From: Zychaea mexicana
Taxonomy: Eukaryota > Mucoromycota > Mucoromycetes > Mucorales > Lichtheimiaceae
Length of the DNA: 64,000 nucleotides
Reading direction: 5' to 3'
Assembly (NCBI RefSeq): GCF_025766255.1
Contig: NW_026516679.1
Span: 1 to 64,000, forward strand
The position numbers and the translations under genes are program-made. Each line of letters opens with the position of its first letter. Position 1 is the first letter of the stretch. The notes beneath the pieces are model-generated. The model saw only the letters and a list, made by a program, of their open reading frames with translations. It was not told where the DNA came from and did not search any database. Shown in pieces: positions 154 through 64,000 of this stretch.

Positions 154-218
154 CCTTATGACTAATAGTGTCATGACACTAAGTCTCACTCCCCTACATG
201 ACCCTATCCTCGCTACAT

Positions 219-2177
219 GGGATGTACAGTACCAAATTGGCTATAAATTTACAATAGTTTTTGATAAATCTAATAAATTGCTTGCTGCTATATTAAATTA
301 TATCATCCATTTTGATATTTTATCAATTTTATGACATCATGTGACCAAAATCATATATTCAATGATTATAAAAATTGAAAATCCATAATATAAATAAAGA
401 ACGACCCAATAGATACAATAAACTATACACCACTGATTACAAATGAAGTAAACTCAATTATTGCAAATTATTGGTAATTCCTAGAATAGAATTGGCCTAC
501 TGTACATAATAAATATAAACATAGAACTGATTTAAGATATATTAAATTCATAGAAAAAATTAAGGATGAATTGTTACGTAAATTAGGTTATGTTGCTGTA
601 TTTTATTTTCTAGTAGTTTTATATACAAACAAGGAATATTCCGGACCTTACTTTGAAATTGAAAAAGGATTGTTTTTAATATATCATTTACTGGAGTATA
701 TGGTGAAAAAAATTTGAAAAATACTTACCACATAGCACATTTCATACATTTTATAAAAAGTTTTGGATGGATGAGGACAACTACAAACGAATCAACAAAA
801 TAGTAAATGATTCAATGAATAACATGTTTTCATCTATCAAATTACGTATTCTATCTGCTAGAAAGCATAATCCCGACTTATTTAAACATATAACACTTGT
901 ATTAGATGGCCATGATTCAAGAATCAACTATGTAGATACTGAAATTGACTACTTTCAAAGAATGTATTCTTATAAATTTAAGAAGAATGGAATACGTACC
1001 CAATTTGTTAGTGATATGAATGATATGATTATTTATACTTCTAAAAGTGACTTTTGTTCTGATAGCTCAGATGGCAGCATGTTTTTAAACATGAAATTAT
1101 TTAAATATATGCATGAGAATGATATAATGGCAGTTGATGGTGGATATCCTTTATTTATCACATAATTTACAGAGCTTGCTAATGAAAGAGGATATAACTT
1201 TAGCTATGATAATTTTGTATACCCTATACGTAAAAATGTAAATGAGCCCTTTACGATTACTGAAGATCATTTAAATAAGACATTTGGAAGTTTTAGGACA
1301 AAAGTTGAGAATCAATTTTTAGAAATTGGGAATAAATTCTGCCGATTCAATAATAACAAGTCAGTTGTTAAAATGGATAACATAAAATACTATAATCTGC
1401 AATTTCGTGTAGCTTGTTTATTAAAAAATTTTACAAAATTTGTAGAAATGTTCAATATTCCTATTTTACCACACTATAAACTATGGCACAGTAATGATTT
1501 TGATTTTCCAGTAGAGCATAAACTAATTGATATAGTGGTCAGCAATGATAAACAAAATAAAGATAAACTGGATAAAATGATCAGATTACAAAATGACCTG
1601 CTTAATATAGCTATATCAAATGAAGAAATGATTGTTGATAATGAATCTGATAATAATTCAAATCAGAGTAATAGTGATAATGATGATGTTCCAAGATTTA
1701 ATGAGCGTAGTAAAAAAAGAAAGCGAAATAAAGGGAAACAACGAGTAATGGCATCATATGAAATAGAAGAGATTATTAGGCATAAAACTGAAAATGGTAC
1801 ATATTTGTTTGAAGTAAAATGGGTTGGATATAGTGCTGATGATAACAGTTGGTTATCAATTGATAAATTTAATCAAAAGGATTTATTGAAGGAATATATC
1901 AATAAGCATAATCTTGGTATATTATAAAATTGCATACTCTGGGTAATATATCATTGATACCATATTATCTTGTTATAAATTCAGTACTATTTACAATATT
2001 TTCCTCAACTGGTATATAACATAATGTGAAGTCATACCTGGTATTCCTTTCTTACCAATTATTTTTATATATACACAAAATTCAATTTTTTGTACAATTT
2101 GGATTTTTGCAGCCAATAGATTTCTTACAGCCAATAGTTTTATCTAATATCTAATTGGAGTTGGATGTCCCCCTACT
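219..2177 (+). mobile_element. DDE-chromodomain transposon, copy A (decayed)
   Basis: Encloses a broken transposase-chromodomain gene. The left border resembles the termini of the copy at 56497-58829 (GGG...ACC followed by ATTGG). On the right, AGCCAATAG-type subterminal sequence ends near 2177. Both borders are diverged, so they are approximate and no target duplication is claimed. No antisense accessory gene remains between 1928 and 2177, unlike copy B. Confidence 0.55.
420..1927 (+). pseudogene. DDE transposase with C-terminal chromodomain, copy A
   Basis: Homologous along its length to the gene at 56596-58116. The first ~350 bp have lost the start codon and carry stops; one is TAG where copy B has TGG. 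From 767 a single frame runs to 1927, broken only by TAA at 1163-1165, where copy B reads CAA. It contains a DDE_Tnp_4-like (PIF/Harbinger-like) core: LDGHDSR as the first acidic site, a Y-K-F-K-K-N-G strand, MAVDGGYPLF as the second, and a VENQF segment as the likely catalytic Glu. An acidic linker with a basic KKRKRNKGK stretch follows, then a chromodomain (SYEIEEI, VKWVGY, NSWLSI) with the Tyr/Trp/Tyr aromatic-cage positions kept. Transposition role is inferred from the family; the copy is dead. Confidence 0.7.
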
Positions 2178-2682: not shown

Positions 2683-2805
2683 TAATGGCTCATTCCATTT
2701 GCCACCATATATAAAGTTACCCTTTCAGGGTTAAAAGCTTCCTTCGGGAGCTAACTTTATATATTATTCATATGAATAAGTGTGTATGTGTGTATATGTG
2801 ACACA

Positions 2806-3137: not shown

Positions 3138-3464
3138 TCTATCAGCGGAAGCAGTTTCGTAAAACCGTGCTCGACGTTCTGAGCAGAGACTATATCAAGA
3201 CGATATGCACACGACTTCTCTTGGTTGCACGATCATCAAGAATAAATTTTCTAACGAGTCTTCTCTTAGTCTCAGATGTATTAGAACTCTTTTTTCCAAA
3301 CTTACAAAAAAACTCAAGTTTCGTCGCACCTCTTTATGTACAAGCACTCAACCCGATTCTTCTGATACTGACCACTCGTATCCCGGAGCAAAAATGGCAG
3401 AAGACCACCCACTCCGCAACCTAAACCAGACAACTGGCCGTGCTTCGTCCTCGCCGGCCATTGG

Positions 3465-5219: not shown

Positions 5220-5272
5220 TTCGACCAGCAGACGCGCCCACTCCTACTGGTGGCCTAGTTGGCGACGATTCT

Positions 5273-9974: not shown

Positions 9975-10152
9975 ATAATAGTGGGTTATCTATTGATATG
10001 TTTAATCAAAAAGATTAATTAAAAGCATATATTGAAGAATATAGTCTAGGCATATTGTAAAAAGAGCACAGTATTTATTAGAATTATATAGAAATTTTAT
10101 GGAAGAATATTATTAAAGCATAGAAAAAAAGGATAACCTATATTTAATGTTA

Positions 10153-10583
10153 TAGGTTTTCTTTTTTTATTATTTTCTTTTCATTTCTTACAGGTATCTT
10201 TTTTATTTCTAGATCTTTACTATTATTATTAACTACTAAACGTTTTTTTAGAATATGTAGTTTACTATGTTTAGAGCATAAAAAATCTTTCTTACCTTCT
10301 GGTATATTAGTTTTAATTTTACATGAACAAAATTTACCTTCATTCTTTCCTTTTTATACTTATATATACAGAAATCATTGTTTATACTAAGATAAAGGAA
10401 ATGATCTGATGAAAATGTTTCATTTATTTTTTTATCTATTTTTTTTTATATTTTTTTGATTAATTTTTTTTCATTTTCTAAGAAATGCTCAAATTCATAT
10501 TCCATGAAAATATTTATTTCTTTACATAAATTATTACGAAGTTGGATATGATTAATTGGAAGATAATCATTAAGTGCAACCAT
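10153..10583 (-). pseudogene. Antisense Cys-rich accessory protein of the DDE-chromodomain element, copy E
   Basis: Reads MVALNDYLPINHIQLRNNLC from the start and follows the intact protein at 58199-58636, including the acidic/Lys-rich middle and the FSSDHFLYLS segment. It has an in-frame TAA in the lysine-rich region and a frameshift at the cysteine motif, so the C-terminal half is out of frame. Its position opposite the end of the transposase gene is the same as in copy B, so this gene pair belongs to the element. Function unknown. Confidence 0.65.
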
Positions 10584-27330: not shown

Positions 27331-27750
27331 ATGGACAATAAGGAACAACCAGCAAAGAAGTATTATAAAGACACCCCAAGTTTTCAAAAATTTTGTACAA
27401 GTCAAGACCCACTGTTGGACACCAAAGAAGAATTTACTATAAGACAAGAACTTACCCCAGAACTACCTGTACCAAAGATGAACGCTGAACAACAAGCCCT
27501 ACTTCTACAAGCAATCCAGAAGTTGTTTGAAAAAGACAACTTGGCTCCAATATTTCGTGTGCGTATACATGAACCAGATATGTACTATAGTGACTGCAGC
27601 TTAGATGCTGCATTGAACTAGGTCTCGGCGGTGGAGCAATATCTGATGATGGCCAAGTTAGGCGAACATGAATGGATCGGATACGTGGTAACTTTACTAT
27701 GTGGTGAGGCAGAAACATGGTGGCGACAAGGAGACCGGCTAAGGTTATAG
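27331..27750 (+). pseudogene. gag: Gag fragment behind LTR-A
   Basis: Starts MDNKEQPAKKYYKDTPSF and leads into a Ty3-type capsid start (Y-Y-S-D-C-S-L-D-A-A-L-N, stop, V-S-A-V-E-Q-Y-L, then TLLCGEAETWWRQGDRL). The in-frame TAG at 27619-27621 stands where this Gag domain usually has Trp, again TGG to TAG. The sequence stops resembling Gag at about 27750, where AT-rich DNA of another element begins, so the rest of the retroelement is lost. Confidence 0.7.
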
Positions 27751-28028
27751 TGATTATGCTTTAGTCTATTAGTACTAGTTGGTTATATAGCTAAGAAAAA
27801 TTGGGATAGCTAAAATTAATTTTATTCAATTAATTTATGCATGATAGTCTTGGCATGCATACTTTTAAGAATTTCAAAAAAATAAAAATTGAATTTTTTT
27901 TATTATATAAAATAACACCTCAAAATACCAAGCGTAATTTATCTGCTATATATCTTTTATATTAACAGCACTTTCACAACAATCAATACAACATAGATCA
28001 GATTAACTTACTAACATTTCTTACTATA

Positions 28029-28187
28029 ATGGCTGAATTCGTTCCTATTTTAGGAATAACCTTAATGCTCCTGATTGAAAGAGCTACACATCTTACTGAA
28101 CATCACCAACATATTAATGATGTTAACATTATCGTTGACCACCTAAAGGATGAACTAGAAAAAGACTTAAAAAAATACAAAAATTGA
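28029..28187 (+). CDS. Small ORF (52 aa) upstream of the Rep-like sequence
   Basis: Reads MAEFVPILGITLMLLIERAT, then a charged helical part (HLKDELEKDLKKYK). The spaced Leu residues suggest one amphipathic helix or coiled coil. Preceded by a TATA-like stretch and CAACA-rich leader. Same strand as the Rep-like ORF and in similar AT-rich sequence, so probably from the same element. No family recognised. Confidence 0.35.
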   Translation: MAEFVPILGITLMLLIERATHLTEHHQHINDVNIIVDHLKDELEKDLKKYKN

Positions 28188-28242
28188 CAAAAAAACAAAG
28201 GACCGAAGCTGATCAAAGATTATTAGTAGAATTAGGGCATAT

Positions 28243-28884
28243 GTGAGATTCCTCAAATCCTCAAATCGTCAATTTTCCGATACAATGTTAGATGGCAACA
28301 TTTCCAGTACGGGTACCTCACAAGGTGGGAAAGAACTCCGGTTCCAGAATACTAAAGGACTATTCACATATATCTGTAAGAATTTCCACCTAACTAAAGA
28401 ACAGGTATTAGAATGGTTTATAAAACATGAACATATTGGTTATCGAATTGAAAAGGCAATTGCATGTAATGAAGGTACCCCTGAAACAAGTGAGAAACAT
28501 GTACATATATAGATACAAATGGATGAACGATTTGACACAAAGACAGCACGTAAATTCTTTACTATAGATGGTGTGACACTAAATATAAAACCTGGTGGTA
28601 ATCCTGCAAAATCCATCAGTTATTGTATAAAAGGAATGAATTATATTACATACAATATAGATCCGAATTATGAAATTAAGACTAGAAAAATGCATCAACA
28701 ATTACTTGGGTATCAATTAATTACAAAACAGCTTAATATGCGAAAGGCTACAGAGATATATCCAGAGTTGCTATGGATACATGATACTGTAAAATCAAAT
28801 CTGAATAGTTACTTTCATGATGCTGATATAGAAAATAATCCAGGAAACAAACTATATATGTTGTCTATGTCTGGTATCGAAACT
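28243..28884 (+). pseudogene. Rep-like HUH endonuclease domain (CRESS-DNA type), truncated
   Basis: One frame carries the three rolling-circle Rep motifs in order: motif I as LFTY (about 28360), motif II as HVH with TAG at 28510-28512 just after it where an aromatic residue is usual, and motif III as YCIK (about 28620). Spacing fits the geminivirus/CRESS Rep catalytic domain, which nicks and rejoins DNA at an origin. The helicase (superfamily 3) half is absent; the frame runs straight into a DD34E transposase domain. AT-rich codons contrast with the GC-richer downstream half. I see no nonanucleotide stem-loop origin nearby. It may be an endogenised virus, plasmid or transposon. Confidence 0.65.
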
Positions 28885-29550
28885 ATGTGCATGAATTGGG
28901 CGCATGCGTTCGAAGCCAGTGGCATGGACTACTACAAGTGTATCTTTATTGACGAAGCTGGTTTTAATATGCACATTAAGCATAATTTGGGTCGTTCGCG
29001 TCGAGGTGCTCCAGCTAGGGCTTTGATTTCGAGGTCCCGTGGTGTGAATATGACGATCTTGGGAGCGATAACTGGTGAAGGCGTTGTCAACCTCAGCCTT
29101 AGAAGACCACAGGCAGATGTTGGCTCGAAAAAACGCAAACTCTGTGATGGCGAGGAAAAGGTTGTGGGCAAGATCAGTATGCGGGCAGAGCACTATATCA
29201 GGTTTTTGGAGGTGCTCATGGAAGTATTGAAGGAAAATAACATGGGAGGAAGAACTTTGGTAATGGATAATGCCACTATCCACAAGACAGCAGAAGTGAG
29301 GGATGCAGTGGCGAAGCAAGGATTTGATATCCTGTACCTTCCTCCATATTCCCCTTTCCTCAACCCGATCGAAGAATTTTGGTCGAAGCTGAAAGCCGGT
29401 GTCAAACACAATTTGTTGACAACGGATGATACGTTGCTGCCACGAATTGTTGACTCTGCTAATCAAGTCTCTGCGCAAGATTGCCAAGGTTGGATAAGAC
29501 ATTCACTTTCGTTTCTGCCTCGTTGTATCGATGGAGAGAAAATGCTGTAG
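28519..29550 (+). CDS. Chimeric ORF: Rep-like C-part fused in frame to a DD34E transposase domain
   Basis: 343 codons without a stop. Residues 1-~120 belong to the Rep-like sequence (motif III included). From about residue 125 (NWAHAFEASG) it is the IS630/Tc1 DDE_3 nuclease, closely similar to 25300-25953. All three catalytic residues are present: Asp145 (FIDEAGFN), Asp250 (VMDNATIHK) and Glu285 (NPIEEFW), a DD34E spacing. The transposase N-terminal HTH and AT-hook are missing. Whether it is expressed is unknown. It most likely arose when a 5'-truncated Tc1-like copy came to lie behind the Rep sequence, yet the join is in frame and no nonsense codon has accumulated. Confidence 0.6.
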   Translation: MDERFDTKTARKFFTIDGVTLNIKPGGNPAKSISYCIKGMNYITYNIDPNYEIKTRKMHQQLLGYQLITKQLNMRKATEIYPELLWIHDTVKSNLNSYFHDADIENNPGNKLYMLSMSGIETMCMNWAHAFEASGMDYYKCIFIDEAGFNMHIKHNLGRSRRGAPARALISRSRGVNMTILGAITGEGVVNLSLRRPQADVGSKKRKLCDGEEKVVGKISMRAEHYIRFLEVLMEVLKENNMGGRTLVMDNATIHKTAEVRDAVAKQGFDILYLPPYSPFLNPIEEFWSKLKAGVKHNLLTTDDTLLPRIVDSANQVSAQDCQGWIRHSLSFLPRCIDGEKML

Positions 29551-30283
29551 TTTTATCTTAGTTATCCATGTTTTTTTCATATTTATATGTTTTTTTTTAA
29601 AATAAATTTTCAAATTGCAAAGTAAAAAACCAACAATGGCGGCTAATTTGAACCATTATAATTTTTTTTAATCTATAATTTCTATTAATCAAATAAATAT
29701 ATTATTAATATTATTAAATAAGGAAATAGTCACTATAGCAGTTGACTAAAATGACATTATTTTGATAAAAAAATTATTGCCAAGTAATAAATAATTATTA
29801 ATTAATATAAATTATTGACTATTTCATCTCTATAAATAAATAGAGCTTTATTAGTACAATATATTCAGTTATTTCTAAAAAAGATATAATATGCATAATC
29901 TTTATAGTCCTAATTTATATATAAAATAGTTTGAATAATTTTTGAAAAAGCAATTATATCAGGAATTTTAAATATTTGATTTTCATTATTAAATTTTATT
30001 AAATTATCAGTTAATTTTATATAATAAGTTGGTAGAGCAATATTAACATTAATATAATAGAAATCACAATGATTTCTCATACCAATTTCTTCTATATATA
30101 TAATATCATTTAAAATTTTCAATCTTATTATTTTTATTTTCAATATATCTTCCTAATAAATTTCTACCAATATATTTTAAAATTTCAATAAGTATTAAGT
30201 TTATGAAAATGAAAATCATAATCTATATTGTAAGCAAAGTTATTAGGATCCATTATTACCTTTTTGATTTCTTTTTTTTATAT
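29551..30283. other. AT-rich DNA between Tc1-like fragment and DDE-chromodomain copy C
   Basis: The first ~90 bp match the 3' trailer of the Tc1-like transposase (TTTTTTTCATATTT, TATGTTTTTTT) and an AATGGCGGCTAATTTG piece of its TIR. The rest is very AT-rich. A 77-codon minus-strand ORF (29910-30143, MKIKIIRLKILNDIIYIEEI) has no recognised motif and may be a leftover of copy C. Confidence 0.5.
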
Positions 30284-31772
30284 TTATAAATTACTCAAAT
30301 TTTTATAATCAGTTATAATAGTTTTTGTATTAAGATTACTTTCTTTAATCCATGTATTATCTTCATCATTATAACCTAACCATTTAACATAAAATACAAA
30401 CTTTCCTCTCTCATCTATCACATAATCTATTATTTTTTCTACTTCATATATATTTTCTTCATTTGCTTTTTCTTTGTCTTAATTTTCTTTCTTTTTTTGG
30501 TTATTGTTTCTTCTCTATTTATAACTTCATCTTCTTCATATGTCATATTTGTATCTTCTATATTGATATTTAAAATTTTTTCTTGTATATCTAACATTTC
30601 ATTATATTCAGTATTAATTAACTGTTTATTCTTAAAAATATAATTTAATTTTGTTTCTTTAGTTGGAAATTCAAAACCATCATTATACCATAATATATGA
30701 TGTGGTTGAACTTCTATCTGATAATCATTTACCATTTTCTATATATTTTTTAATATACAACATACTCTTAATTGTAAATTATAATATTTTTATCAGATAT
30801 TTGAATTACTGCTCTATTATTATTAAAACGATCAAATTTAGATGCTAAAACTGAAAAATGATTTTCTATTCCTGATCTAAATGACCCAATTTTTTTATTA
30901 TAATCTAATTCTGTTACAGTTCTATATATATTTTGCTCTTTTCGTATAGGATACATAAAATTTCTATTATTAAATGTATTACTACTATTATAATTATCAG
31001 TATGATCAATAAATTTTTCAAAAAATAAATCATATCCTCCATCAAAACTAATACAATCTGCTTCTGATATCTTATTTTTATAGAGCTTCATATTCAAAAA
31101 CATTGTACCATCATTTCCTATAGCACATTTTTCACTATCTGATACATATATGATCATATTATTCATATCTGACTTAATTTATGTTCTAATTCCTTTTCCT
31201 TTTAATTTATATGAATATAATGTTTTGGATGATTCAGATGGATTATAATATTTAATTTTTGAATCATGTCCATCAAGAAATAATGTAACATTTTTAAATC
31301 CTTGTGGATTATTAACTTTTGCTGCTAAAATACGAATTTTAATATTTGAAAATAGTTCATCTAAATCTTTTTTTACAACTTTATTAATATTATTATAATT
31401 AGTAATCCAAAAACGTTTATATATATCATAAAAAGTAGAATATGGTATAAATTCATATATATCATTTCCAGATTTACCTGATACAATATAGTATAATAAA
31501 ATTAAACCCTTTTCAATTTCTTTATAAGGACCAGGATATTCTCTATTTCCATATAAAATATTTAAAAAGTAAAATACAGGAATGTAACCCAACTGTTTTA
31601 AAAGAATATCTTTTATAATATCAATTTTATTATTTTTAGTTTTTTTAATTTCTGTTCTGTAATTAAATTTATTTTGTATATATAGCCATTCTGTATTTAA
31701 AAACATCCATTTGTTTTCTACTAACTTATAAACTTCTGATTGTAATTGTTCTTGAAAATTAGTAGTATTCAT
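30284..31772 (-). pseudogene. DDE transposase with chromodomain, copy C (diverged subfamily)
   Basis: Reads from MNTTNFQEQLQSEVYKL through RNKFNYRTEIKK-type sequence and a FLDGHDSKIKYY first acidic site. A TAA at 31176-31178 stands where copies A and B have CAA. FDGGYDLFF is the second site and GIENHF the likely Glu segment. A stop near 30766 and a one-base shift near 30470 precede the chromodomain (YEVEKIIDYV, FYVKWLGYNDEDNTW). Aromatic-cage residues are kept. It is clearly less similar to A and B than they are to each other, so several lineages of this transposase-chromodomain fusion have been active. Confidence 0.75.
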
Positions 31773-32089
31773 TGTTTTGTTCGATCTTTTAACTCTAGTA
31801 GAGCAATCCGGGAAATCTAATAACCTTAGAATAATGTCAAAGTTTGATAATAATAATTATATATATATTTTGAGCACTACTCAATATAATAAATAAAAAC
31901 TCAATTTTTAAAAAAAAAGTAAAATTAATAAAAAATATTATTTCGGCTAAAAAGGATTACTTTGACTATAAGAAATTTATAATATTATAAAACAAAATAG
32001 TTATAAAGGCTTACCAGTTAGACCCCAATCATCTTTTATCCTAGTATGACACATAAATCTTATTACACCGTCATTGTAATTTTCACCTT

Positions 32090-49533: not shown

Positions 49534-50886
49534 TTATAGCCGAACAGATTTGTGCTTGACAAAACGTGTCTTTTCACCACTGTGGTTTCTTTTAAGAGAC
49601 TGTGTGGTTTTGCTGTTATTTTTGTGCTGGATTTGTTTCTGTACCTGTTTTTGCTTGGGTTGTTCTCCAAGCCGTTTCCAATAATTGTTTATTGTGGCAC
49701 GTTGGGTGAATGCTTCATTAGATTCCCAAATATTTTCATCTGGTTTGTAACCCTTCCAGCGTACTTTATACTCATATGTGCCGGGTGCCGTTCCTCTATG
49801 AGCCACTATAAACTCCACCTCAAATAGTTCATCACAAGGTATAATTTCATCTTGAGAAATTAATCTTAGCTGTGATGATGCATATTCGCGTGCCATTATC
49901 TCGTTTTGTTCATTCTTAATTATGTATGCGCCACCTCTATTGCGTCTTACTACTGTGTATGGACCTTTATATTCTGGGTTTAGTTTTCCTGCCTTTTCTC
50001 TCTCTTTAATCATTACATGACTGTTAGGTGGGAAATCAATTAAGTGATGTTTTTTATCGAACTTGTTTTGCTGTGCCTTATTAAGAGATTGTACGCGTTC
50101 ACTTATTGCAAGAAAAACTATATTCTCCATATTCTTGATGCGTTCCATGAGCATTTTTTCTGATGCAGGTGTTAATTGACCATCTTTTGTATAGTCATTG
50201 AAGCCATTCAACTTTCGTGCAAACATTAATGTGTATGGAGCGGATCCAGGTCTTTTTGCTATTTTTGCATTTTTTGTAAGCTGTACACTAGGAACAAATA
50301 AGTCCCAATCCTTTACTGCTCCTCTAATGCTCTTTTTCAATGCATCAGCTGTTGTGGAGACCCAACGCTCAGAAACTCTGTTTCCACGCAGGTGATATGG
50401 TGTACTAAGTCTATGATCCAGTATAGTGACTGTTGTTAGCTTCTTTATGATGGAATTGACGAGCTCAGCTCCATTATCTGATTGTAAGTAACGGGGAAAA
50501 CCGAAATCACAAAACACTTCAACTAACTTTTTCGCAATGGTATCATATTGCTCATTTGGTATGGGGCGTAAAATGCAAAAGCGTGTGCAAACATCCACTA
50601 TGACCATTAGATAATTATTACCAGTGAAAGTTGTTTTGAATGGTCCTGCTAGGTCTATGGCCCAATGATCACATGGTAAATATGCATGTATGGGATGTAG
50701 AGGATGTATCCTGCTTTTGTAATATTAAACTTTTGACACTCAGGGCATTTCTTTACGATCAATGCTGCATCTTGATAGTTGGTGCTCCAATGTATACTGT
50801 CACTATGCAGGGCTTTTGCTATTGCCTCTGCTCTGAAGTGTCTGAATACATGTGTTTTTTCTAATAGATTTGTTCTTTCTTCAATT
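49534..50886 (-). pseudogene. pol: Ty3-2 integrase and chromodomain
   Basis: Zinc-binding part: EKTHVFRHFRAEAIAKALHS, KKCPECQKF (His-His-Cys-Cys). After a break near 50640 a 357-aa frame (50607-49534) carries the core with the VDVCTRFCILRP Asp, QSDNGAELVN Asp and the region where the catalytic Glu would be (HLRGNRVSERWV), then GPYTVVRRNRGGAYIIKNEQ and a chromodomain (FEVEFIVAHR, YKVRWKGYKPDENIWESNEA) followed by a Gln/Lys tail. The usual Ty3 H-x-N-G-x-x-E context is altered to LRGNRVSE. MITE-B copy 2 separates it from the RNase H part; excision gives L-E-P-P-I-E-E-R-T-N in frame. Confidence 0.85.
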
Positions 50887-51118
50887 GAACACTGTTCATG
50901 AGGCACTTGTAGGCAAGTGTTTAGAATAACTACCATTATTCTAGGGTTTCGACTACCGTCTCAATGACCAGCTACCCACGTCATCGAAAATCAAAGATTT
51001 TCTCTGACCACCCCTAATTATATTGATCATTTTTTATTATTTAAAAGTAAAACTTAAAACTTAAATATATAAAATAATATTAAAAATTAAAAAATCAATA
51101 AAGTATTAAACAGCCTTC
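50887..51118. mobile_element. MITE-B copy 2 (232 bp)
   Basis: GAACACTGTTCATGAGG...AAACAGCCTTC, flanked by ATT (50884-50886, 51119-51121). Same length as copy 1 and frame-restoring on excision. Confidence 0.88.
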
Positions 51119-51129
51119 ATTGGCGGTTC

Positions 51130-52440
51130 TAACATATCTTTGTATAGTGATTCTCTGTTGGTTAAAACCTTTTTAGCAGTTGTTTTATCCAGCATTCTTT
51201 TTAACGTATAGTTCTGTTTCTGTTGTGCTTTGTAATCAGTTCTAGCAGCTACAGCTCTAGTTACTGCTCGTTGTAGTACTGTTGCTGGCTTAGATTGTTC
51301 TAAGCTTAGCTGATCCTCATCACCCCTTCCAGCTCTTTATCCATCGGAAAAAGGCGTGACAACTGGTCAGGTAAGATGTTGGCTAAACCAAGTAGATGTA
51401 CAATATCGAAGTCATATTCGAGAAGTGTGTCAAACCAACCAATCATCATTGCATTGGCTATTTTTTGTGTATGCAAAAAAGTGAGGGTGCAATGGTCTGT
51501 TAATAGGGTAAATTTGGAGCCCCAGGTCTATTTATGCCATCGATGTAAAGCTACAACGCAAGCTAGCAGTTTTCTACGTGTTATGCTATAGTTTCTTTCT
51601 GATTTAGAAAGTGTTCGTGCAGCAAACCCAATATGACGAGTTTCGCCATCAATTATTTGATATAAAGCGCTGCCAATACCCATATTGGAAGCATCAGTGG
51701 CTAGATAAAATGGCTAGCTCATGTCTGGATAACGTAAAATGGGTGCTTGTAAAAGTATTTTGCGTAAGGTACCAAACGCATTTTGATGCTTATTATTCTA
51801 TAGACGTACAATGGATCCAGCATTACGAAGTGCATCCAAAGGTGCAGTTATATGTGATATATTAGGGATATGGTCCCTAAAATAATTCACAACACCTAGA
51901 AACTGTTGTATATTTTTGCCTGTTCTAGGTATAGGCCATTCGTGCATATTTGATACTTTGCGCGTGTTTAGGGTAATACTTAATCGGAAACGCAAAATCC
52001 CAAAAGATATACAGATCTTTGAGCAAAATGGCACTTGTAAGGGTTTAAGATGAGATTGACCTAAAATAATTCACAACACCTAGAAACTGTTGTATATTTC
52101 TGCATGTTCTAGGTATAGGCCATTCGTGCATATTTGATACTTTGCGCGTGTTTAGGGTAACACCTTAATCGGAAACGCAAAATCCCAAAAGATATACAGA
52201 TCTTTGAGCAAAATGGCACTTGTAAGGGTTTAATATGAGATTGACCTTGGTCAATGCTTCAATAGCTTGTGCTACATGTTCGCGATGTTCTTCCAAGCTC
52301 TTGGAGAAGACAACAACATCATCCACAAAGCAGTTCACGTGCTCTTGCTGCTGGCTATACACCAGATGCATCACGCGCTGGTACTTATTGCTCAAGGGCT
52401 TTAATCTAAACGGAGCTCCGGCAAAAGACCATTGACGGTT
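51130..52440 (-). pseudogene. pol: Ty3-2 RT (part) and RNase H, with internal tandem duplication
   Basis: Carries FAGAPFRLKPL, HVNCFVDDVVVFSKSLEEHR (FVDD active site), LNPYKCHFAQRSVYLLGF, then RKVSNMHEWPIPRT-type connection, FYLATDASNMGIGSALYQ and LLTDHCTLTFLHTQ of RNase H. Frames change several times. The segment 51877-52245 is a tandem duplication of about 184 bp that repeats the RT thumb/connection region. Confidence 0.8.
51877..52245. repeat. 184-bp tandem duplication in Ty3-2 RT
   Basis: CTAAAATAATTCACAACACC starts at 51877 and again at 52061. The two units differ by a few substitutions and one single-base indel (GGTAATACTT / GGTAACACCTT). It duplicates coding sequence, so it followed or caused loss of function. 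Confidence 0.9.
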
Positions 52441-54270
52441 TTAGAAAGTAAAAGAAGTCTTATGACGATCATCAGGATGTATCTGAAATCGGTGAAATGC
52501 ATTTTTCAAATCGAGCGTTGTAAATACAGTTGCTCCTTTCATTTTATGGAATATATTTCGGATGAGAGGTAGAGGATAACGATCATCCGGTAGTAGCTTT
52601 TTTATATGCCTTAGATCAAAGCAAGGTCGCTTGCCAGTGTATTTGCCATTGGCATCTTTTTTTGGAGCTAAAGTTAAAGGACTATTCCATGCAGTATTTA
52701 CCGGTGCTGGCTCAATAGTGCCATCCTCTGCCCACTTTCGAATTTGCCCTTCTATTATTTTTTCTGAAGCCACAGGTAGATCATATTGTCTTCTGTAGGA
52801 AGTAATACCTGGTGGTATTGGTAATTCAACAATGGTTTCTGGCACTGTGCAGAATAATGTTTTCAGAATTGCCGTATTGGCATCCAAATAGCGTTGGATG
52901 GAGTTAAAAAAAGCTTTGTGTTCACTTGGTGATCCTGCTGGAGAATCATTGGGTTTGATTTCGTCGAAAATACTGAAATCAGACTCTTCATTACTTATGG
53001 GCTTGTTCCAATAAGGGATCAGACCTGTAATACCAATGCCTAGCTTCGTCATCAAGTCTAAACCAATAGTCACTTGTATATCTTCAGAAAGAGACATGAC
53101 TTCAAAGGTATGTATAGCCGTTTTGTTATTGTATTGGATTTTTATGTTGTTAACACTACCTTTTCGAGGTATGGTTATATCTTTTATAGCAAGAATAATA
53201 TGACCATCATTTTCAGGTGCTACACTTTTTAAGTTTATTTTGTTTACTAAACTTTTGTCTATGAATGATTTGTCTGCTCCAGTATCGAGGAGTGCCATCA
53301 CTGGTCTATTTTGCAAGACAATGGGTACCATAATAGACAATTGATTATTATCTTGCTGTGAATTAGTATGCTGCAGTTTTTTCTGCTTACCCTTTTTATC
53401 TTTGGGATCAAGTTCATTTTCATTTATCGAAAGATATCTTGTTTGTTTTTCAATACGACTCATTCGAGCACGCATTGTTCTGGTGGCTCTGGCCTCACGC
53501 ATTTCGGGGCACTTGTGACCAAATTTGAATTGCACTTTCTTGCAAAATTTACAAGGATTGGTCATAGGGGCGCGTGTTTCACCAGTATAACGAGTTTTCT
53601 TGGAAACAAAATTGCTGGGTTTGTTTTTCTTCCTCTTTTTGTTGTAATCTTCATTTTCTTCAGAGTCTTGGTCTGAAGCAGTTGCAGGTTCGCCCTCAGC
53701 CAAAGTCAAGACTGCTTGTATAACAGCGTCCAGTGTACTGGGAAACTGTAAACCAAAGTGGTTTGCAGCAACGTTCCACGCACATTGGCAGTACTTCTTA
53801 TTCAAAGATGATAAGAAACCATATCCTAACTCTTCGTTGTCAGGTATTCCAGACGAGCAGGCAAGCTCCAAGTACCGGTTTGCAGATTCTCACAGCGCCT
53901 CATTGCTGTTCTGGGTCAATGTGCGCATCTTATAGCATTGGTAGTAAACTTGGTATAGAGAAGAAAACGCACGACAAAACTCTTCTCGAAGCTTGGTTCA
54001 GTTCATGTCATGCCGTTGCATGGTTTTAACTAACCAAGCACGTCTTGTGGCATTATAAGTCAGTGGCATCAACCTCTTCCAGTAATTTTTGACATTGATC
54101 GAATGTGCTTCTAGCACATACGCAAAGTCATCGAAGAACTGCTCAGGTGAGTCATATGACTTCCCTTTGGCAAACGTGGTGTGTCCTCGAAGGTTGAACA
54201 CAGGTAAGTTCTTGGGAACTAAATGTGCAACTTTGGCATCATCTAGTGTCTTGTCGGAAAGAGATTTCAT
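52441..54270 (-). pseudogene. gag-pol: Ty3-2 Gag, protease and RT N-terminus
   Basis: Gag pieces (54270-53998, MKSLSDKTLDDAKVAHLVPK, FDDFAYVLEAHSINVKNYWK) with TGA/TAG breaks near 53998 and 53890, then a 476-aa frame (53871-52441). That frame contains the end of Gag with a knuckle-like C-x2-C-x8-H-x-C (CKFCKKVQFKFGHKC), an aspartic protease (ALLDTGADKSFID) and RT starting IEGQIRKWAEDGTIEPAPVN, then FDLRHIKKLLPDDRYPLPLI and FTTLDLKNAFHRFQIHPDDR. It ends at TAA in S-F-T-F-stop-N-R-Q-W. Gag and pol seem to share one frame here. Confidence 0.85.
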
Positions 54271-56312: not shown

Positions 56313-56595
56313 TTAATCCTTAATTATCTATTTATTAAAATCCTTCAGTTTTACGATTTATAACTCATAAAAAAGGAAATCTTTTCAATCTCCTCCTCCT
56401 TTCTTTCCTTCACAGTCTCTTTACGCGTTCGATATGTCCATCTGTCCATAACGCTTTTTCGTTGCCATGGCGACCGTGTAACCATTACAGCATTATGGGT
56501 TCTGCATTACCTTATTGGTTACAAAAACATAATTATTTTTAATAAAAATAATTATTTTTTTATATATAAATTGAATTTTATGATATAAATAAAAA

Positions 56596-58116
56596 ATGGA
56601 GCAAATAGATTATACACCATTAATTACAATAGAAGTAAATACTATTATTGCTAATTATTGGACATTTCTTGAATGGAATTGGCCTATTATACATAATAAA
56701 TTTAAACATAGAACACAAATTAAACATATTAAATTTATTGAAAAAATTAAAAATATATTATCACAAAAATTAGGTTATACTACTGTCTTTTTTTTCTTAG
56801 TTATATTATATACAAGTAAAGAGTATCCAGCTCCTTATTTTGAGGTAGAAAAAGGTTTATTTTTACTATATCATTTGGTTTCAGGTATTTCTAGAGATGA
56901 AATTGAAAAATATTTACCTCAAAGCACATTTCATACATTTTATAAAAAATTTTGGATGAATAAAGAGAATTATAAAAGAATTAATAAAATAGTAAATGAT
57001 TCATTGATGTATATCTTTTCGAATATAAAGTTATGTATTTTATCTGCTAGAAAATATAATCCAGATTTGTTTAAACATGTAACACTTATTTTAGATGGTC
57101 ATGATTCACGAATTAATTATACAGATACAGATTTAGATAGGTCACGCTTATATTCATATAAATTTAAAAAAAATGGTTTACGTACACAATTTGCTGCTGA
57201 TGTTAATGATATGATAATTTTTATATCAAAAAGTGATTTTTGTATAGATAGTTCTGATGGTAGCATGTTTTTAAATATGAAACTTTATAATAAAATAAAT
57301 TAAAATGATACTTTAGCAGTTGATGGTGGGTATACCTTATTTATAACACAATTTACTGAAATTGCTACAGAAAAAGGATATGATTTTAACAATAATAACT
57401 TTGTTTATCCAATATGTAAAAATATAAATGAAAATCTAACTATTACTGAAGAACATTTTAATAATACATTTGGAAGCTTTAGAAGTAAAATTGAAAATCA
57501 GTTTTCTGAAATTGGCAATAAATTTTATTGATTTAATAATAATAAATCAATTGTAAAAATAGATAATATTAAATTTTATAACCTCCAATTTCGTGTAGCT
57601 TGTTTATTAAAGAATATTACAAAATTCGTTGAATTATTTAATATACCTGTTTTACCTCACCACAAATTATGGCATAGTCATGATTTTGATTTTCCTATTG
57701 AAAAAAAATTAATTGATATAGTTGTTAGTAATAATAAACAAAATAAAGATAAACTTGATAGAATGGTACAACTACAAAATGATTTATTAAATATGACAAT
57801 ATCAAATAATACAATGGATATAGATAATGATAGTGAATCAGATGAATTAGAAAATAGTGAAAATGATAATGATATTCCTAATTTTAATGAGCGTACTAGA
57901 AAAAGAAGAAGAAATATAAAAGGTAAACAGCGTGCAACTGCATCATATGAAATAGAAAGTATTGTTGGACATAAAAAGGAAAATAACATATATTTATTTC
58001 ATGTAAAATGGGTTGGATATAGTGATAATGATAATAGCTGGTTATCTATTGATATATTTAATCAAAAAGAATTATTAAAAGCATATATTAAAAAACATAG
58101 TCTAGGTATATTATAA
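56596..58116 (+). pseudogene. DDE transposase with chromodomain, copy B
   Basis: 506 codons in one frame with two stops: TAA 57301-57303 and TGA 57529-57531, where copy A has CGA. Domains: N-terminal helical region (residues 1-~120, including STFHTFYKKFW, possibly HTH); DDE core with Asp167 in LDGHDSR, FKKNGLRTQF, SSDGSMFLNM, AVDGGYTLF and KIENQF; an acidic Asn/Asp/Glu linker with a KRRRNIKGKQR basic patch; and a chromodomain at the C-terminus (SYEIESIV, FHVKWVGYSDNDNSW). The core order fits DDE_Tnp_4, but the sequence is far from ordinary PIF nucleases. The chromodomain could direct insertion into heterochromatin (inference). Confidence 0.75.
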
Positions 58117-58198
58117 AAAACATTATATAATATTATATAAAACATTTATGGAAGAATATTATTAAAGCATAGAAAAAAAGGATTACCTATACTTATTT

Positions 58199-58636
58199 TT
58201 ATAGGTTTTCTTTTTTTTTTTGATTTTTTTTTTCAATTTTTATAGGTAGCTTTTTAATTTCTATATCTTTACTATTATTTAATACTGTCCGTTTTTTAGG
58301 AATATGTAATTTACTATATTTGCAACAAAGAAAATCTTTTTTAGTACCTTCAGGTATATTAGTTTTAATCTTACGGGAACAGAATCTACCCTTATGTTTT
58401 CCTTTTTTGAACTTATGCGTACAGAAATCATTATTCATACTAAGGTATAGAAAATAATCTGACGAAAATGTTTCTTTTATTTTTTTATCTAATTTTTTTT
58501 GAATTTGTTTTATTAATTTTTTTTCGTTTTCTAAGAAATGATCAAATTCAGATTCCATAAAAATATTTATTTCTTCACATAAATTTTTTTGAATTTGAAT
58601 ATGATTAAGTGGGAGATAATCATTAAGTGCAACCAT
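58199..58636 (-). CDS. Cys-rich accessory protein of the DDE-chromodomain element (145 aa)
   Basis: Intact ORF, convergent with the transposase. N-terminus MVALNDYLPLNHIQIQKNLC, an acidic part (FMESEFDHFLENEK), a Lys-rich helix (KLIKQIQKKLDKKIKETFSS), then a probable zinc-binding module C-T-H-K-F-x3-K-H-K-G-R-F-C, followed by F-L-C-C-K-Y-S-K-L-H. The tail is strongly basic. The C...G-x-x-C...C...H arrangement resembles small zinc domains written C-x11-C-x(n)-C-x-H. It could be a DNA-binding partner, as Myb-like ORF1 is for PIF/Harbinger. A decayed homologue sits at 10153-10583 in the same relative place. No family name assigned. Confidence 0.6.
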   Translation of the reverse strand: MVALNDYLPLNHIQIQKNLCEEINIFMESEFDHFLENEKKLIKQIQKKLDKKIKETFSSDYFLYLSMNNDFCTHKFKKGKHKGRFCSRKIKTNIPEGTKKDFLCCKYSKLHIPKKRTVLNNSKDIEIKKLPIKIEKKNQKKKENL

Positions 58637-58977
58637 TATTAAACCTTTGGATGATTTTATTTTTATTTAAAAATAAAATTCAATTTTATAAATAATTTAA
58701 ATCTTTGGATGATTTTGTTTTTATTTAAAAATAAAATTCAATTTTATAATTAATTTAAATTTTTGTTACCAACAAAAAATTTGTTACTAATAGTTTTTAT
58801 ATAAAAACAGTTGGTAATGCATATGCACCATTGTCTTCTAGCATTCAAACGATCAAAATGTGGCTTCACTGTTTACCTCCGACGTAGAATAAAGCTGTAA
58901 GTACAACAGAGTGTATAAATATTAAATGCTACACAAAACTTTTTCTCTCTCTCTTTATCACAAAACATTCATCTCCA

Positions 58978-59786: not shown

Positions 59787-62735
59787 ATGTCAACTCCAAT
59801 TTGCCCTTCATGCGGCTTGCCCGGCCATCAACGCATTTCGCACCGCAACTGTCTTCATAATCCCGCTCAGTTGTAAATGCGTCAGCAAAATTAACATGAA
59901 GCTGGAATTGAAACCGAAGAACGCGTTCCTGTGTGTTCAAGCTGTGGGCAAGAGGGTCATCATCGCTCCACCAACCGATTGTGCCCAAACAATCCTGCAA
60001 ACCAGGCTGCTCAAAACGTTAGTGACCATATCTATACCAGCTATACTTGCTATTCGTTGATATATAGTCATCGGCTGTCAGAAGCTTGAGCATTCAGTAT
60101 ATCATTTAATGATCCTTTACTTCATGTAGATGCATAATATCGCCCGTGCTGTTGCAGCTGTGATTCCTCCCCAGCACTATTTTGGTCGCATGGACAGGGA
60201 ATGCTCTAATTGCCATGCACGTCTTTGGATTCAAGAGCGCATCTCAAACTCTTCCCAAGTACGACCTGCATTTAGCCTATGCTGTGACCAAGGAAGTGTC
60301 CGATTGCCACCCCTTTCCCCCACCCCTCCTGAAATTTCCCGTTTGTTGCGTGGCACGGATGAGGCCTCCACCCAATTCCGCACAAACATCCGCGCATACA
60401 ACAACTCCCTCAGTTTTACTTCGCTTGGTGTCCACGTTGATCAGACAGTAGCCAACTCCATCGGTGGTGCGTACAACTTCCGCATCCACGGTAGTGTCCA
60501 CCATTGAATCGGGTCTATTTTGCCTGCCAACAATACAAAAAGGCCTGCTTTCGCGCAAATGTACAGTACGTTCATGACCCGTCGACCGAGCTGCAAACCC
60601 GACAGTTTGTTACAAACGCTACGTTGATCAATGAAACGCTACAGACCTTGCAGGATATGATGCACTGCATCAGCCCATTCGCGACATCATTTCGCAACAT
60701 GGCTGAAATTGCTTGCAATGAAGGCATGGCGGATGTGAGAATGGTTATCAGGGCTGAAGGGGTACCCAATGCTCACCGCTACAACCGCCCCACTACTGGC
60801 GTAATCGGCATTCTGATCGTCGATGATAATGGTACGGATGTTGGCAATCGCGATATCGTTCTAAGAACGAGATCCAATCAGCTACAAAACATCAGTGAAA
60901 TGCATCGCTTTTATGATGCTATGCATTATGTTCTCCTTTTCCCCCAAGGTATACTTACAGAAAATGATTTTGTCCTGAGTTCCATCATGAGTTATTTCTA
61001 TTGCATATTAAGTGTTCGTAATAGGAGATGAAGGCTGGACGATTGAAGCTCGCACTGACGCCGGCAGCAAAATCACTGTCATGGATTGGTACAAGTTCTG
61101 GCTCATGATACGCAGCAATGACAGTGATGCAAACAGACATGATCTTCATCGTTTCGGCAACCTGTATCAGCAATATATCACTGATGTTTATGCAAAGATG
61201 GAGTCCAATCGTTTGAGCTTCATCCGCCGTAACCAAGACCGTTTGCGTTCGGACCTGTATCGCAATGTGGTAGACGCTGTGCATCTTGGAGACAATGATA
61301 TGACCAGTGTTGGACGGCGCGTTATCCTGCCATCATCCTTCATTGGTTCCCCTCGGCATATGCAGCAGCTGTACCAAGAGGCAATGAGTATTGTTCGTCG
61401 TTTCGGCAAACCGGACATATTCGTCACCTTTACTTGCAATCCTCGCTGGCCTGAGGTTCAAGAAAATCTTCTTCCCGGTCAATCAGCATCTGATCGCCCT
61501 GATCTGTCAGCACGAGTTTTCAGATTGAAACTTAAGCAGCTTATGAACGATCTTACCAAGGATAAGATTCTGGGCACTGTTGTCGGACATGTCCATACAG
61601 TAGAGTTTCAGAAGCGTGGTCTCCCACATGCCCATATATTACTTATTCTTGCTGGAGAAGATAAGCCTACTAGCCTAGCCCACTGTGATGCAATTGTTTC
61701 TGCCCAACTTCCCGACAGCAATCATCCTACACGCGCGACAGTTGAACGGCATATGATGCATGGACCTTGCGGGCTTCTCAACCCACGCTCACCATGCATG
61801 GTCGATGGTAGATGCTCGAAGCGCTACCTAAACAGTTTTCTGACGAGACACAATGGAACGACGACAGTTACCCGCTTTATATGAGACCTAATAATGGTGA
61901 CTATGTCACCAAAAATCGCGTTAATCTCAACAATCGCTGGGTTGTACTGCACAACATATACCTATGTGCCAAATATGATGCTCACATCAACGTCGAAATC
62001 TGCTCCTCCATACAGTCCATCAAATACGTTTATAAGGGCCACGATCATGCATCTGCCGTAGTGTCACAGCGTCAAGTGACAAACAACAATGGTGATGATG
62101 GTCAACCAATAGACGAGATCTGCACCCACCTCGACGCCTGCTATGTCTCCACTTCAGAGTGTTGCTGGCGTTTGTTTTCGTTCTCCCTTCACCAAGAATT
62201 TCCTGTGCACCAGCGTTTGGCCATCCACTTGGTAGATGAACAAACTGCTCATTTCGATGAGGATGATACTCCGGGGAACGTAATCGAAGGCCGTGCACAT
62301 GAAACAACTTTGACAGCATGGTTTCAGTACAACCAAGAGAACCCAGACGACGCCATTGCCTCTGACCTTCTTTACGTCAATTTCCCGGAGCACTTTGTAT
62401 TTGTTCAGCGCACACGTCGCTGGAAAATACGTGAACGAGGTTTTGGTGGTACAATCGGTCGTGTCTATGTTGTTTCCCCCTGCGAAGTTGAGAAATTTCA
62501 TCTTCGACTTTTGCTGTATCATGTTGCCGGTGCCACCAGCTTTGAATTTTTGCGGACAGTAGATGGTGTACTGATGCCATCATTCCAGGCAGCAGCACGA
62601 AGACGTGGCCTGTTGACGGGGCAAGAAGAATGGCATCAATGCCTTGATCAAGCTCAAACGTATCAACGCCCCCATGCTCTTCGTCAGCTATTTGCAGTAT
62701 TGTGGCTTTCTGTCAACCTGAGATCCACATGATTT
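59787..62735 (+). pseudogene. Helitron Rep (zinc knuckles and HUH nuclease), broken
   Basis: Starts MSTPICPSCGLPGHQ with two CCHC-like knuckles (CPSCGLPGH, CSSCGQEGHH) broken by TAA. Next are CSNCHARLWIQERISNSSQ, FRTNIRAYNNSLSFTSLGVH and an intron 60949-61024. The Helitron_like_N part follows: MDWYKFWLMI, the motif FVTFTCNPRWPE and the HUH motif GLPHAHILLIL at about 61620. A one-base deletion near 61830 shifts the frame before PKQFSDETQWNDDSYPLY and KYDAHINVEICSSIQSIKYV. Where Helitrons usually show two Tyr in K-Y-x-x-K-Y-x-x-K-G, this copy has only IKYVYKG. It would nick and transfer one strand for rolling-circle transposition. Defective. Confidence 0.85.
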
Positions 62736-62757
62736 ATGGCTTCGTCACCGCGATAGC

Positions 62758-64000
62758 ATGGTTGAAGACTTTCTGTACATAGCCCGCCAAGATTTAAACG
62801 ATCCAAATTTGCCCATCACGGATGCCATTTATGACCAAGGCCTTTTGGATATTGAATTGGTGCTCTTGGATTGTCAAGATCGCTTCTTGAATTTGATGGG
62901 TTTGTGCTTCCAGCCAACCCAAACAATTATGCCAACAATGAGCCTTTGTTGATTCGTGAGCACCGTCGACTTGTGGAACGACTTGCCCTGATGCCTGCTC
63001 CTCAACAAGAATTTAACGAGCATCAGCAATCTGTCTTAATGCAGTCAATGCATCTTTACGCCAAGCGGAAATCAGCCAAAGGTGCATTTTGTGATGGCCC
63101 TGGTGGTACTGGAAAGACATATCTTTTCAATGCACTCCTCCAACATGTTCGTCGTGGCGGAGATATTGCGCTCGCTGTAGCTACAAGTGGTACTGCCGCC
63201 TTGTTACTCGATGGTGGACGAACTGCACACTCAACGTTCAAAATACCTTTAGAGGTCAACGAAACAACAGTGTATAGCTTTACCCCACCTCTATACCGCG
63301 CAGCTTATACGTTTGGCAAGATTGATCATCTGGGATGAAGCATCCATGATCAGTAAAAGCGTCATTGAGACTGTAAACAGGAGTATCCAGGATCTCATGA
63401 GACATGACGATCCCGCGCTTGCGATGTTCCGTTTGGTGGAAAGATATGGTCTTTGGTAGTGACTTTCGCCAGGTATCCAACATTGTATCCTCTCTTCTAC
63501 TTTGCATGTTTTTTACTATTAAGCGATAGTACTCACAGTAAAGTATATGTAATAGGCCCTTCCAGTGATACCAAATGCGTCGCGCTCGCAGATCGTACAG
63601 CAGTGCTTAAATCGTTCATCCATTTGGCCCAGCGTCACCATCCACCACCTTGAAACCAACATGCGTGTCCAGCAAGCTGCCAACACTAATGATGCAAATA
63701 AGCTTCGCGAGTTTGCTCAGTATTTACTTCACATTGGTGATGGTGCTGAGCTGTTGGTGCCAACCACTGATGATAGAGTCCGGCTTCCAGAACGAATGCT
63801 CATGCCACGTTACAACCCGTACGAGCTCATCGAAGCCATTTACGACAGCCTTGACGCACCACACGTGGATCGCGATTACCTCATCAGTCGCTCCATTCTA
63901 ACTCCAAAAAATGTCGACGTTTCAGCAATCAACGATCTGATACTCGACCATTTCCCAGGCACTATCCACGAATTCCCAAGCGCAGATACTGTGGATGATC
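62758..64000 (+). pseudogene. Helitron Pif1-like helicase (partial, runs off window)
   Basis: Continues from Rep. Linker RQDLNDPNLPITDAIYDQGL, then HQQSVLMQSMHLYAKRK, Walker A DGPGGTGKTYLFNALL, VATSGTAALLLDGGRTAHST, a frameshift near 63325, Walker B IIWDEASMIS and FGSDFRQ. An 83-bp intron (63473-63555, GTATCC...GTAATAG) separates this from ALPVIPNASRSQIVQQCLNR, NTNDANKLREFAQYLLHIGD and PKNVDVSAINDLILDHFPG. The order is that of the Pif1 family fused to Helitron Rep, a 5'-3' helicase. The last ~1/4 and the 3' CTRR end lie beyond the window. Confidence 0.85.

Follow-up and report, generated by a model that had tools for sequence, protein, structure and literature searches.

A chromodomain-bearing, PHIS-like transposon family of Mucorales with lineage-specific convergent partner genes

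Results

The elements in the window

The window (C68:1-64000) is a stretch of 64,000 nucleotides from the 50.3-Mb genome of Zychaea mexicana, which is assembled in 305 contigs. It contains a whole element, here called A-type, in which a transposase frame with a C-terminal chromodomain faces a convergent small gene, together with further copies of A-type and one element of a second lineage, B (Table 1). Ty3-type elements with chromodomains are also present in the window.

Table 1. Coordinates of the chromodomain-transposase elements and their parts in the window
Feature	Position	Strand	Remarks
A-type copy	217..2173	+	TSD TAC; ends read by eye; without room for the partner gene
Broken transposase match of copy 217-2173	409-1924	+	Sequence match
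A-type remnant	9976..10583	+	Chromodomain end and decayed partner
Chromodomain end in A-type remnant	9977-10057	+	81% identity to L010 over 27 residues
Decayed small partner in A-type remnant	10153-10583	-	
B-type element	27730..32025	-	TSD CAA (probable); disrupted by a Tc1/mariner-type insertion
CRESS-type Rep gene remnant	27966..28887	+	N-terminal and HUH part; convergent with transposase
B-type transposase with chromodomain	30284..31772	-	Broken frame
Target-site duplication (TSD) ATT, left	56492..56494	.	Precedes the whole A-type element
Whole A-type element	56495..58829	+	Homology to sister copies stops here; empty site matches; termini ATGGGTTCTGCATTACC (left) and GGTAATGCATATGCACC (right)
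Transposase frame, DDE_Tnp_4 nuclease and C-terminal chromodomain	56596..58116	+	Two in-frame stops
Chromodomain	57946..58095	+	Pfam Chromo E 1.2e-8
Small Cys/His protein, A-lineage partner	58199..58636	-	145 aa; convergent
TSD ATT, right	58830..58832	.	Single ATT in 8 full-length empty sites

The transposase of the whole A-type element is a single frame of 507 codons, interrupted before its last codon by TAA (57301-57303) and TGA (57529-57531), and shares 96% identity with that of the intact copy L010 over its entire length of 506 residues. Pfam gave a DDE_Tnp_4 match to a 75-residue middle piece that stayed under the cut-off (E 0.0033); the genome-scale DDE_Tnp_4 profile search matched the nuclease core at C68:57094-57615 (E 3.1e-8, 38.1 bits), in agreement with the nuclease assignment of the first-pass annotation. 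Two sister copies, L010 and L012, share 2.33 kb with this element at 96-97% identity. When its two flanks were joined with one ATT, the joined sequence had 19 matches in the genome, of which 8 covered the whole query (1-162) without a break at the joint, with 92-98% identity, demonstrating that the element was inserted in repeated sequence and that its borders are exact. The borders originally proposed, 56497..58829, were accordingly moved to those in Table 1, with a 3-bp TSD.

The first-pass annotation had placed a DDE_Tnp_4-like nuclease with a chromodomain at three loci and in one fragment of the window, and both the Chromo matches and the alignments to L010 or L070 agreed with it. The copy at 420-1927 matched Chromo (E 2.4e-9) and, under the cut-off, DDE_Tnp_4 (E 0.0003), and was 73% identical to L010 across the last 406 aligned positions. 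The copy at 30284-31772 matched Chromo (E 7.9e-14), its nuclease pieces being below detection with Pfam DDE_Tnp_4, and its identity of 58% to L070 over 366 positions makes it a distant member of the B lineage. This copy had been grouped with the other two; it shares the fusion with them and belongs to a lineage with another partner, a CRESS-type Rep. The Rep remnant matched at C68:28144-28887 with 76% identity (E 5e-128) and 5 stops. The 27730 end of the B-type element is clear, whereas the 32025 end is diverged and probable, having been picked visually with knowledge of the TSD.

Target-site duplications and mobility

An exact 3-bp TSD was found in 8/9 A-type copies compared to 6/72 mismatched pairs; this count is not independent, because the offset had been noticed by eye on 11 loci before counting, whereas the empty sites provide independent evidence. 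B-type units have imperfect ends (GGCGTCCT and GGGGACCGG), which were defined on C57, C115, C90 and C224 before the other copies were fetched. Loci were chosen from matches retaining both outer parts; of 18 examined, 4 lacked one end and were excluded, and C303 was left out of the count as its ends did not show. The result showed that 8 of the 14 two-ended B copies (7/13 without C57) had an exact 3-bp TSD compared to 6/182 mismatched pairs, with no 4-bp matches, and that 6/14 had no matching TSD. The 16 matched TSDs comprised ATT, ATA, AAT, CCA, AGA, GCT, GAG, CAT, ATG and CTT, together with TTA at C46. The B unit at C46 also had one uninterrupted empty site (C46:83463-83575, 93%). Taken together, the TSDs and the C46 empty site show that the Rep gene lies inside the mobile unit and is mobilized together with the B transposase, between the same terminal repeats.

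Breadth and history of the fusion

The genome profile search returned 159 DDE_Tnp_4 matches. Among the 150 listed, which also include other DDE_Tnp_4 families, at least 32 had a chromodomain tail on the same strand within 1.5 kb downstream, a count that is a lower bound; the chromodomain tail itself had at least 150 matches in the genome. Eight intact copies of 494-541 aa from several lineages (L010, L015, L071, L077, L072, L074, L070 and L076) all carried the fusion, with D167, D243 and E300 invariant throughout. The five of these proteins that were scanned were all above both Pfam cut-offs (DDE_Tnp_4 E 7.5e-12 to 1.5e-6). A further copy, L073, had other sequence where the chromodomain would stand.

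In public sequence, 199 proteins among 7999 candidates scored matched the transposase profile. Named relatives among the best 120 of the 199 came from Circinella minor (up to 85% identity), Lichtheimia, Mucor hiemalis and Apophysomyces, that is, from Mucorales genera. Some records among the relatives are named 'Chromo domain-containing protein' or 'hypothetical protein', indicating that the architecture is visible in databases, though undescribed within the literature searched. The presence of chromodomain-bearing Ty3-type elements in the same window could be taken to mean that a transposase and a chromoviral neighbour had been juxtaposed by chance or by an assembly artefact. This explanation was refuted by single frames that encode the fusion in different lineages and species, Apophysomyces at 38% identity being one example. 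The recurrence of the fusion in many lineages and several genera upholds the initial view that it is not a chance join.

Catalytic columns alone were used to build a tree with 103 rows (8 own and 95 public); the public rows came from the best 120 of the 199 relatives, 25 rows shorter than 420 aa being left out. The D/D/E residues were retained in 103, 103 and 102 rows, respectively. A chromodomain was present in 73/103 rows (8 own and 65/95 public), including 13 rows that the first chromodomain pattern had missed and that were re-labelled by eye. This distribution needed 8 changes and placed the chromodomain on either side of the midpoint root, which no outgroup fixes. With midpoint rooting only, the tree reads best as a fusion that would be ancestral and repeatedly lost. 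Copies elsewhere without a chromodomain had been named in advance as evidence against the fusion; such relatives do occur (30/95 public rows in the sequence available, some of them cut gene models or contig ends), yet the tree favours repeated loss.

Simple Nei-Gojobori estimates, with domain limits set by hand, gave dN/dS values of 0.14, 0.26, 0.26 and 0.21 for the transposase in four A pairs. For the B transposase the values were 1.37 (L070/L082, 24 differences), 0.51 (L070/L076) and 0.26 (L070/L075), showing that constraint on recent B transposase pairs is weak or none.

The chromodomain

The closest solved relatives by sequence of the L010 tail were Chp1 (1.4e-4), MPP8, Swi6 and HP1/CBX proteins. 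Chp1, MPP8, Swi6 and HP1 are H3K9me readers. In 8/8 intact copies, three positions that align with Chp1 and MPP8 were occupied by Tyr (Phe in L072), Trp and Tyr, and the three window copies had Tyr, Trp and Tyr there. We take these to be the aromatic cage residues, whose retention had been noticed from the window alone. Judged from the Pfam match above the cut-off and from the cage residues, the chromodomain is of the HP1 type. A single Pre-SET match was found in the genome; Pre-SET is typical of H3K9 methyltransferases, making an H3K9 mark plausible in the host.

In the four A pairs, dN/dS was 0.29, 0.25, 0.41 and 0.54 for the chromodomain and, in the same order, 0.07, 0.24, 0.16 and 0.16 for the DDE core, the chromodomain being clearly above the core in three pairs and equal to it in the fourth. 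Targeting to heterochromatin, as put forward in the first-pass annotation, was not borne out by the four insertion sites, of which one was clearly repeated, one was locally duplicated and two (C57 and C48) had single-copy flanks. The weaker constraint on the chromodomain, its absence from the available sequence of the 30 public relatives and the two single-copy flanks would all suit a domain that no longer reads histones and has become a structural or protein-interaction tail. Given the conserved cage positions, the identity of the best solved relatives and the Pre-SET match, however, we consider such a loss of function improbable.

The small convergent partner of the A lineages

The small partner had at least 150 matches in the genome. 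The same convergent gene had been recognized at 58199 and 10153, which was corroborated by 94%-identical copies of the 58199-58636 gene elsewhere in the genome and by the decayed partner in the A-type remnant. Sixty public relatives were found, one of them from Circinella umbellata. In an alignment of 55 rows, 46 of which were drawn from these relatives, Cys72, His107 and His111 (L010 numbering) were invariant and Cys86 and Cys104 nearly so, and structure prediction gave a helical hairpin with an irregular loop bearing the conserved Cys/His residues. Neither Pfam nor the fold search returned a notable family or fold match for the partner, and Pfam gave no Myb/SANT match for the partner or for Rep at E values up to 1. 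The partner is convergent and conserved, as first noted, and the proposal that it is the counterpart of the Myb-like ORF1 of PIF has position as its basis. The partner is not universal, as the copy at 217-2173 lacks it and Rep takes its place in the lineage to which the copy at 30284-31772 belongs. Linkage of transposase and partner outside this genome is suggested by two pairs, P0034 with P0130 (both longest contig 9425) and P0062 with P0170 (both 5420).

The Rep gene of the B lineage

In the B lineage, the Rep gene lies downstream of the transposase, tail to tail, and overlaps the transposase end; C57 and C135 have 3.9 kb in common at 95%, spanning both genes. In L085, Rep is one open frame of 772 codons (278-2596, +), whereas in L083, the C57 unit, it is split into 735-2321 (-; 528 aa) and a tail in another frame (176-778, -). 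The L085 protein contains the HUH motifs FTYICKDF, HVHIWIQ and YCMKG and the SF3 motifs GPSNVGKT, DFMYNEE and ILNSN. The SF3 pattern GPxxVGKT, DFxYxEE and NSN was kept in 10/10 aligned Rep rows, with relatives at 31-49% identity. Two of the ten rows were without HUH motif I and one without motifs II-III, these being cut sequences, and in P0122 the second His of the HUH motif is replaced (HYY). Pfam matches were all under the cut-off (Gemini_AL1, 0.0011, and Viral_Rep, 0.012, for L083; RNA_helicase, E 0.22). A Rep profile matched solved Rep nuclease domains (9pqf, 5.3e-11; 7vg8, 6.3e-8; 1l2m, 1.3e-7), and a Foldseek search with the Rep model found Vientovirus FB Rep (1.6e-9) as well as the Reps of TYLCV and wheat dwarf virus. 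Alignments running across both Rep domains were obtained by Foldseek with the Reps of Vientovirus and AAV; their TM-scores were low because the model places the domains poorly. From these motifs, profiles and models, the B partner is identified as a CRESS-type Rep composed of an HUH endonuclease and an SF3 helicase. A named relative comes from Rhizopus stolonifer, and pairing in another fungus is suggested by transposase P0059, in which no chromodomain was seen, and Rep P0122 (both on a contig of 4459).

At least 85 Rep matches were found in the genome, which merged into 68 loci. Of these, 39 were convergent with a transposase within 3 kb, 2 were divergent and 1 was on the same strand, and 26 had no transposase within 3 kb among the matches listed; the count includes five hand-added B-type transposase places (four from the chromodomain-tail matches, and the window copy). 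Random Rep strands gave a mean of 20.6 convergent loci and a maximum of 30 in 1000 draws. The corresponding numbers for the 85 raw matches were 45 convergent, 4 divergent, 1 on the same strand and 35 without a transposase.

Rep might be a passenger, that is, a virus gene captured between the transposon ends that has no role in movement. Consistent with this, a 3-bp TSD is likewise seen in the A lineages, which lack Rep, no exact canonical CRESS origin (TARTATTAC) was found in C57 or C135, and L070 has a short frame in place of Rep that, by eye, looks like the N- and C-terminal parts of Rep fused through a deletion. One-mismatch matches to the origin in C57 and C135 numbered three, all in the Rep gene region, and the hairpins of the non-coding ends had AT-rich stems except for one 7-bp ATGCATG stem. 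On the other hand, 8 of the 35 Rep matches longer than 1300 bp had no internal stop, 39 of the 42 Rep loci lying no more than 3 kb from a transposase were convergent with it, dN/dS for the one pair L083/L085 was 0.31 overall (0.21 for HUH and 0.14 for SF3), and the SF3 motifs have persisted in every aligned row despite the divergence of the relatives. A passenger Rep is therefore doubtful in our view, though it is the strongest of the competing explanations.

Head-to-tail junctions of right and left ends were found at C115 and C51, with similar 15-nt spacers. They are compatible with concatemers, but both may stem from a single event. These junctions, like the Rep fold and a domain order as in CRESS viruses, would agree with the B unit being a single-stranded DNA virus or plasmid which integrated into the genome by means of a captured transposase. 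However, the B transposase is a branch within a larger family, no gene beyond transposase and Rep was noticed when the frames of the C57 unit were listed and read, and a pattern-limited scan of viral contigs yielded 11 stretches that fit the pattern, none of which was confirmed as a Rep relative. We regard a viral or plasmid identity of the whole unit as very unlikely.

Discussion

The chromodomain-bearing PHIS-like family is real, general, multicopy and, within the literature searched, new as a variant. Our preferred reading, to which we give a probability of roughly 70%, is that these are PHIS-like transposons of Mucorales that combine DDE-mediated insertion, chromodomain-guided targeting and a convergent partner specific to each lineage, a zinc-type protein in A and Rep in B. 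Weighing against this reading are the two single-copy flanks, the missing canonical origin, the weak constraint on recent B transposase pairs, the higher dN/dS of the chromodomain, the 26 Rep loci with no transposase among the matches listed, the six B copies that lack a matching TSD and the public relatives that show no chromodomain. Insertion of the unit by the DDE transposase with a 3-bp target duplication is seen in the borders and TSDs, and excision would be of the cut-and-paste kind, as expected of the DDE family. The HP1-type chromodomain would most likely bind methylated histone H3 and bias or tether integration, and the small zinc-type protein of A would most likely act as a cofactor that binds DNA or a complex. 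Rep may nick the excised or integrated element and copy it by rolling circle, thereby raising copy number; among the roles considered for Rep this is the likeliest, at somewhat less than even odds. More tentatively still, the B unit as a whole could be a hybrid replicon-transposon of 4 kb and two genes, in which entry by the transposase and histone-guided targeting are joined to rolling-circle copying by Rep, either extrachromosomally or in place.

Chromodomain integrases were previously known from retrotransposons and Mavericks, and a chromodomain on a PIF/Harbinger-like transposase in several fungal genera provides an independent case for testing histone-steered integration. The B lineage adds TSD-bounded, open-frame evidence for a CRESS-type Rep as part of a DDE transposon, so that the long-standing question of exchange between single-stranded DNA viruses and eukaryotic transposons can be put to a direct test in a fungus. 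In the B combination, transposition, chromatin targeting and copying in the manner of a virus might be coupled, and this Rep-bearing branch deserves separate study.

Comparison with known systems

In the literature searched, chiefly open-licence, neither a chromodomain on a PIF/Harbinger-type transposase nor a Rep in a PIF/Harbinger-type element was found; the repeat content of Mucorales is treated in a source available in part (PMC7928374). According to the available part of PMC4482050, PHIS elements are those alignable to the DDE_Tnp_4 catalytic region with E below 1e-4, and all five intact proteins scanned here align at such values. The superfamily has TSDs of 0, 2 or 3 bp (PMC12730594, available part), and the TSDs of A and B are exactly 3 bp. 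The PHIS groups include PIF/Harbinger, Pangu, Nuwa, Spy and ISL2EU, with TSDs of TWA in PIF/Harbinger, ANT in Pangu and CWG or TNA in Nuwa (PMC4482050, available part). Like PIF/Harbinger and other PHIS elements as portrayed there, the present family has a DDE_Tnp_4-type transposase, two genes, short TIRs and a 3-bp TSD. Unlike PIF/Harbinger proper, its TSD is mostly not TWA (1 of 16, the TTA at C46) and its second gene has no Myb/SANT match; unlike Pangu and Nuwa, it has mixed 3-mers (6/16 ANT, 1 TNA and 0 CWG). The C-terminal chromodomain, and Rep in one lineage, also distinguish it from the PHIS groups, and 'chromo' has no occurrence in the available text of PMC4482050.

The available part of PMC10799480 describes chromovirus and Maverick/Polinton integrases with a C-terminal chromodomain. 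These likewise join a DDE recombinase to such a domain, but their recombinase is a retroviral-type integrase and here it is of the DDE_Tnp_4 type. HarbingerS carries SET and PHISTA carries TET/JBP (PMC12730594, available part); they too are PHIS-type transposons that acquired a chromatin or DNA-mark function, in their case as a separate enzyme gene, whereas here a reader is fused to the transposase.

For the B lineage, the joining of an HUH nickase to an SF3 helicase recalls the Rep of CRESS-DNA viruses, and the use of Rep as a mobile-element gene recalls Helitrons and the rotifer Terminons, which encode Rep (PMC6431247, available part). Unlike in all of these, Rep here stands beside a DDE transposase within its TIRs, and unlike in a CRESS-DNA virus, the canonical origin was not found and no capsid gene was noticed in the L083 frames. 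In the available part of its description, the geminivirus-like transposon of Tuber melanosporum has Rep-like and transposase genes between TIRs in many copies, with TIRs of 37 bp and no obvious TSD, and with Rep and one transposase interrupted and the other transposase truncated (Liu 2011, PMC3198968); 'chromodomain' does not occur in that part of the text. The B lineage differs from it in its 3-bp TSD, empty site, open frames, convergent layout and short, imperfect terminal similarity. Both are fungal elements that hold Rep and transposase between terminal repeats in many copies, and, on the available part of its description, the Tuber melanosporum element is the closest precedent found for the Rep-bearing lineage.

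Partner genes, neighbouring frames and B-lineage junctions

The B-lineage transposase (DDE_Tnp_4 with a C-terminal chromodomain) is partnered by a CRESS-type Rep gene on contigs C57, C303, C12, C179 and others of the whole genome (G000), and the window copy of this gene is listed in the table. The Tc1/mariner-type transposase inside the window's B element shows an in-frame junction with a Rep remnant. The two head-to-tail B junctions have similar 15-nt spacers; on the left-end side of the C51 junction, no match to the element was found outside the pattern itself.

At a locus of the A-type lineage (L071, G000:C303:51000-54600), one transposase has two different small-partner genes nearby, on opposite strands. 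At locus L074, a frame at 2664-3401 adjoining a D-lineage transposase is tyrosine-recombinase-like, a name given by eye only.

Features located in the window and at B junctions in the genome (G000)
Feature	Position	Strand	Remarks
Ty3-type retrotransposon	3465-8819		chromodomain at end of integrase region
DDE_Tnp_4 remnant	12908-13399	-	four stops; E 2.9e-10
ORF pair	16891-17955; 39861-40691		mutual similarity by eye
DDE_3 (Tc1/mariner-type) transposase	25049-25953
CRESS-type Rep gene	27966-28887	+	partner of B-lineage transposase
DDE_3 (Tc1/mariner-type) transposase	28519-29550		inside B element
Ty3-type retrotransposon	49534-53565		chromodomain at end of integrase region
Helitron-type region	60130-63338		Helitron_like_N at 61081-61884
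Head-to-tail B junction	G000:C115:38311-38348		B right end, 15 nt, B left end
Head-to-tail B junction	G000:C51:10305-10342		B right end, 15 nt, B left end

Other elements and public relatives

The DDE_Tnp_4 remnant had no tblastn match to the chromodomain transposases at 1e-3, indicating that it belongs to a different family. Searching the ORF pair against Pfam at E 0.01 gave no match.

In the public relatives P0039, P0043, P0048-P0051, P0053, P0059 and others, a short tail of comparable composition stands where the chromodomain would be. P0059 and a Rep may lie on a common contig. The two Ty3-type retrotransposons are possible candidate donors of the transposases' chromodomain.
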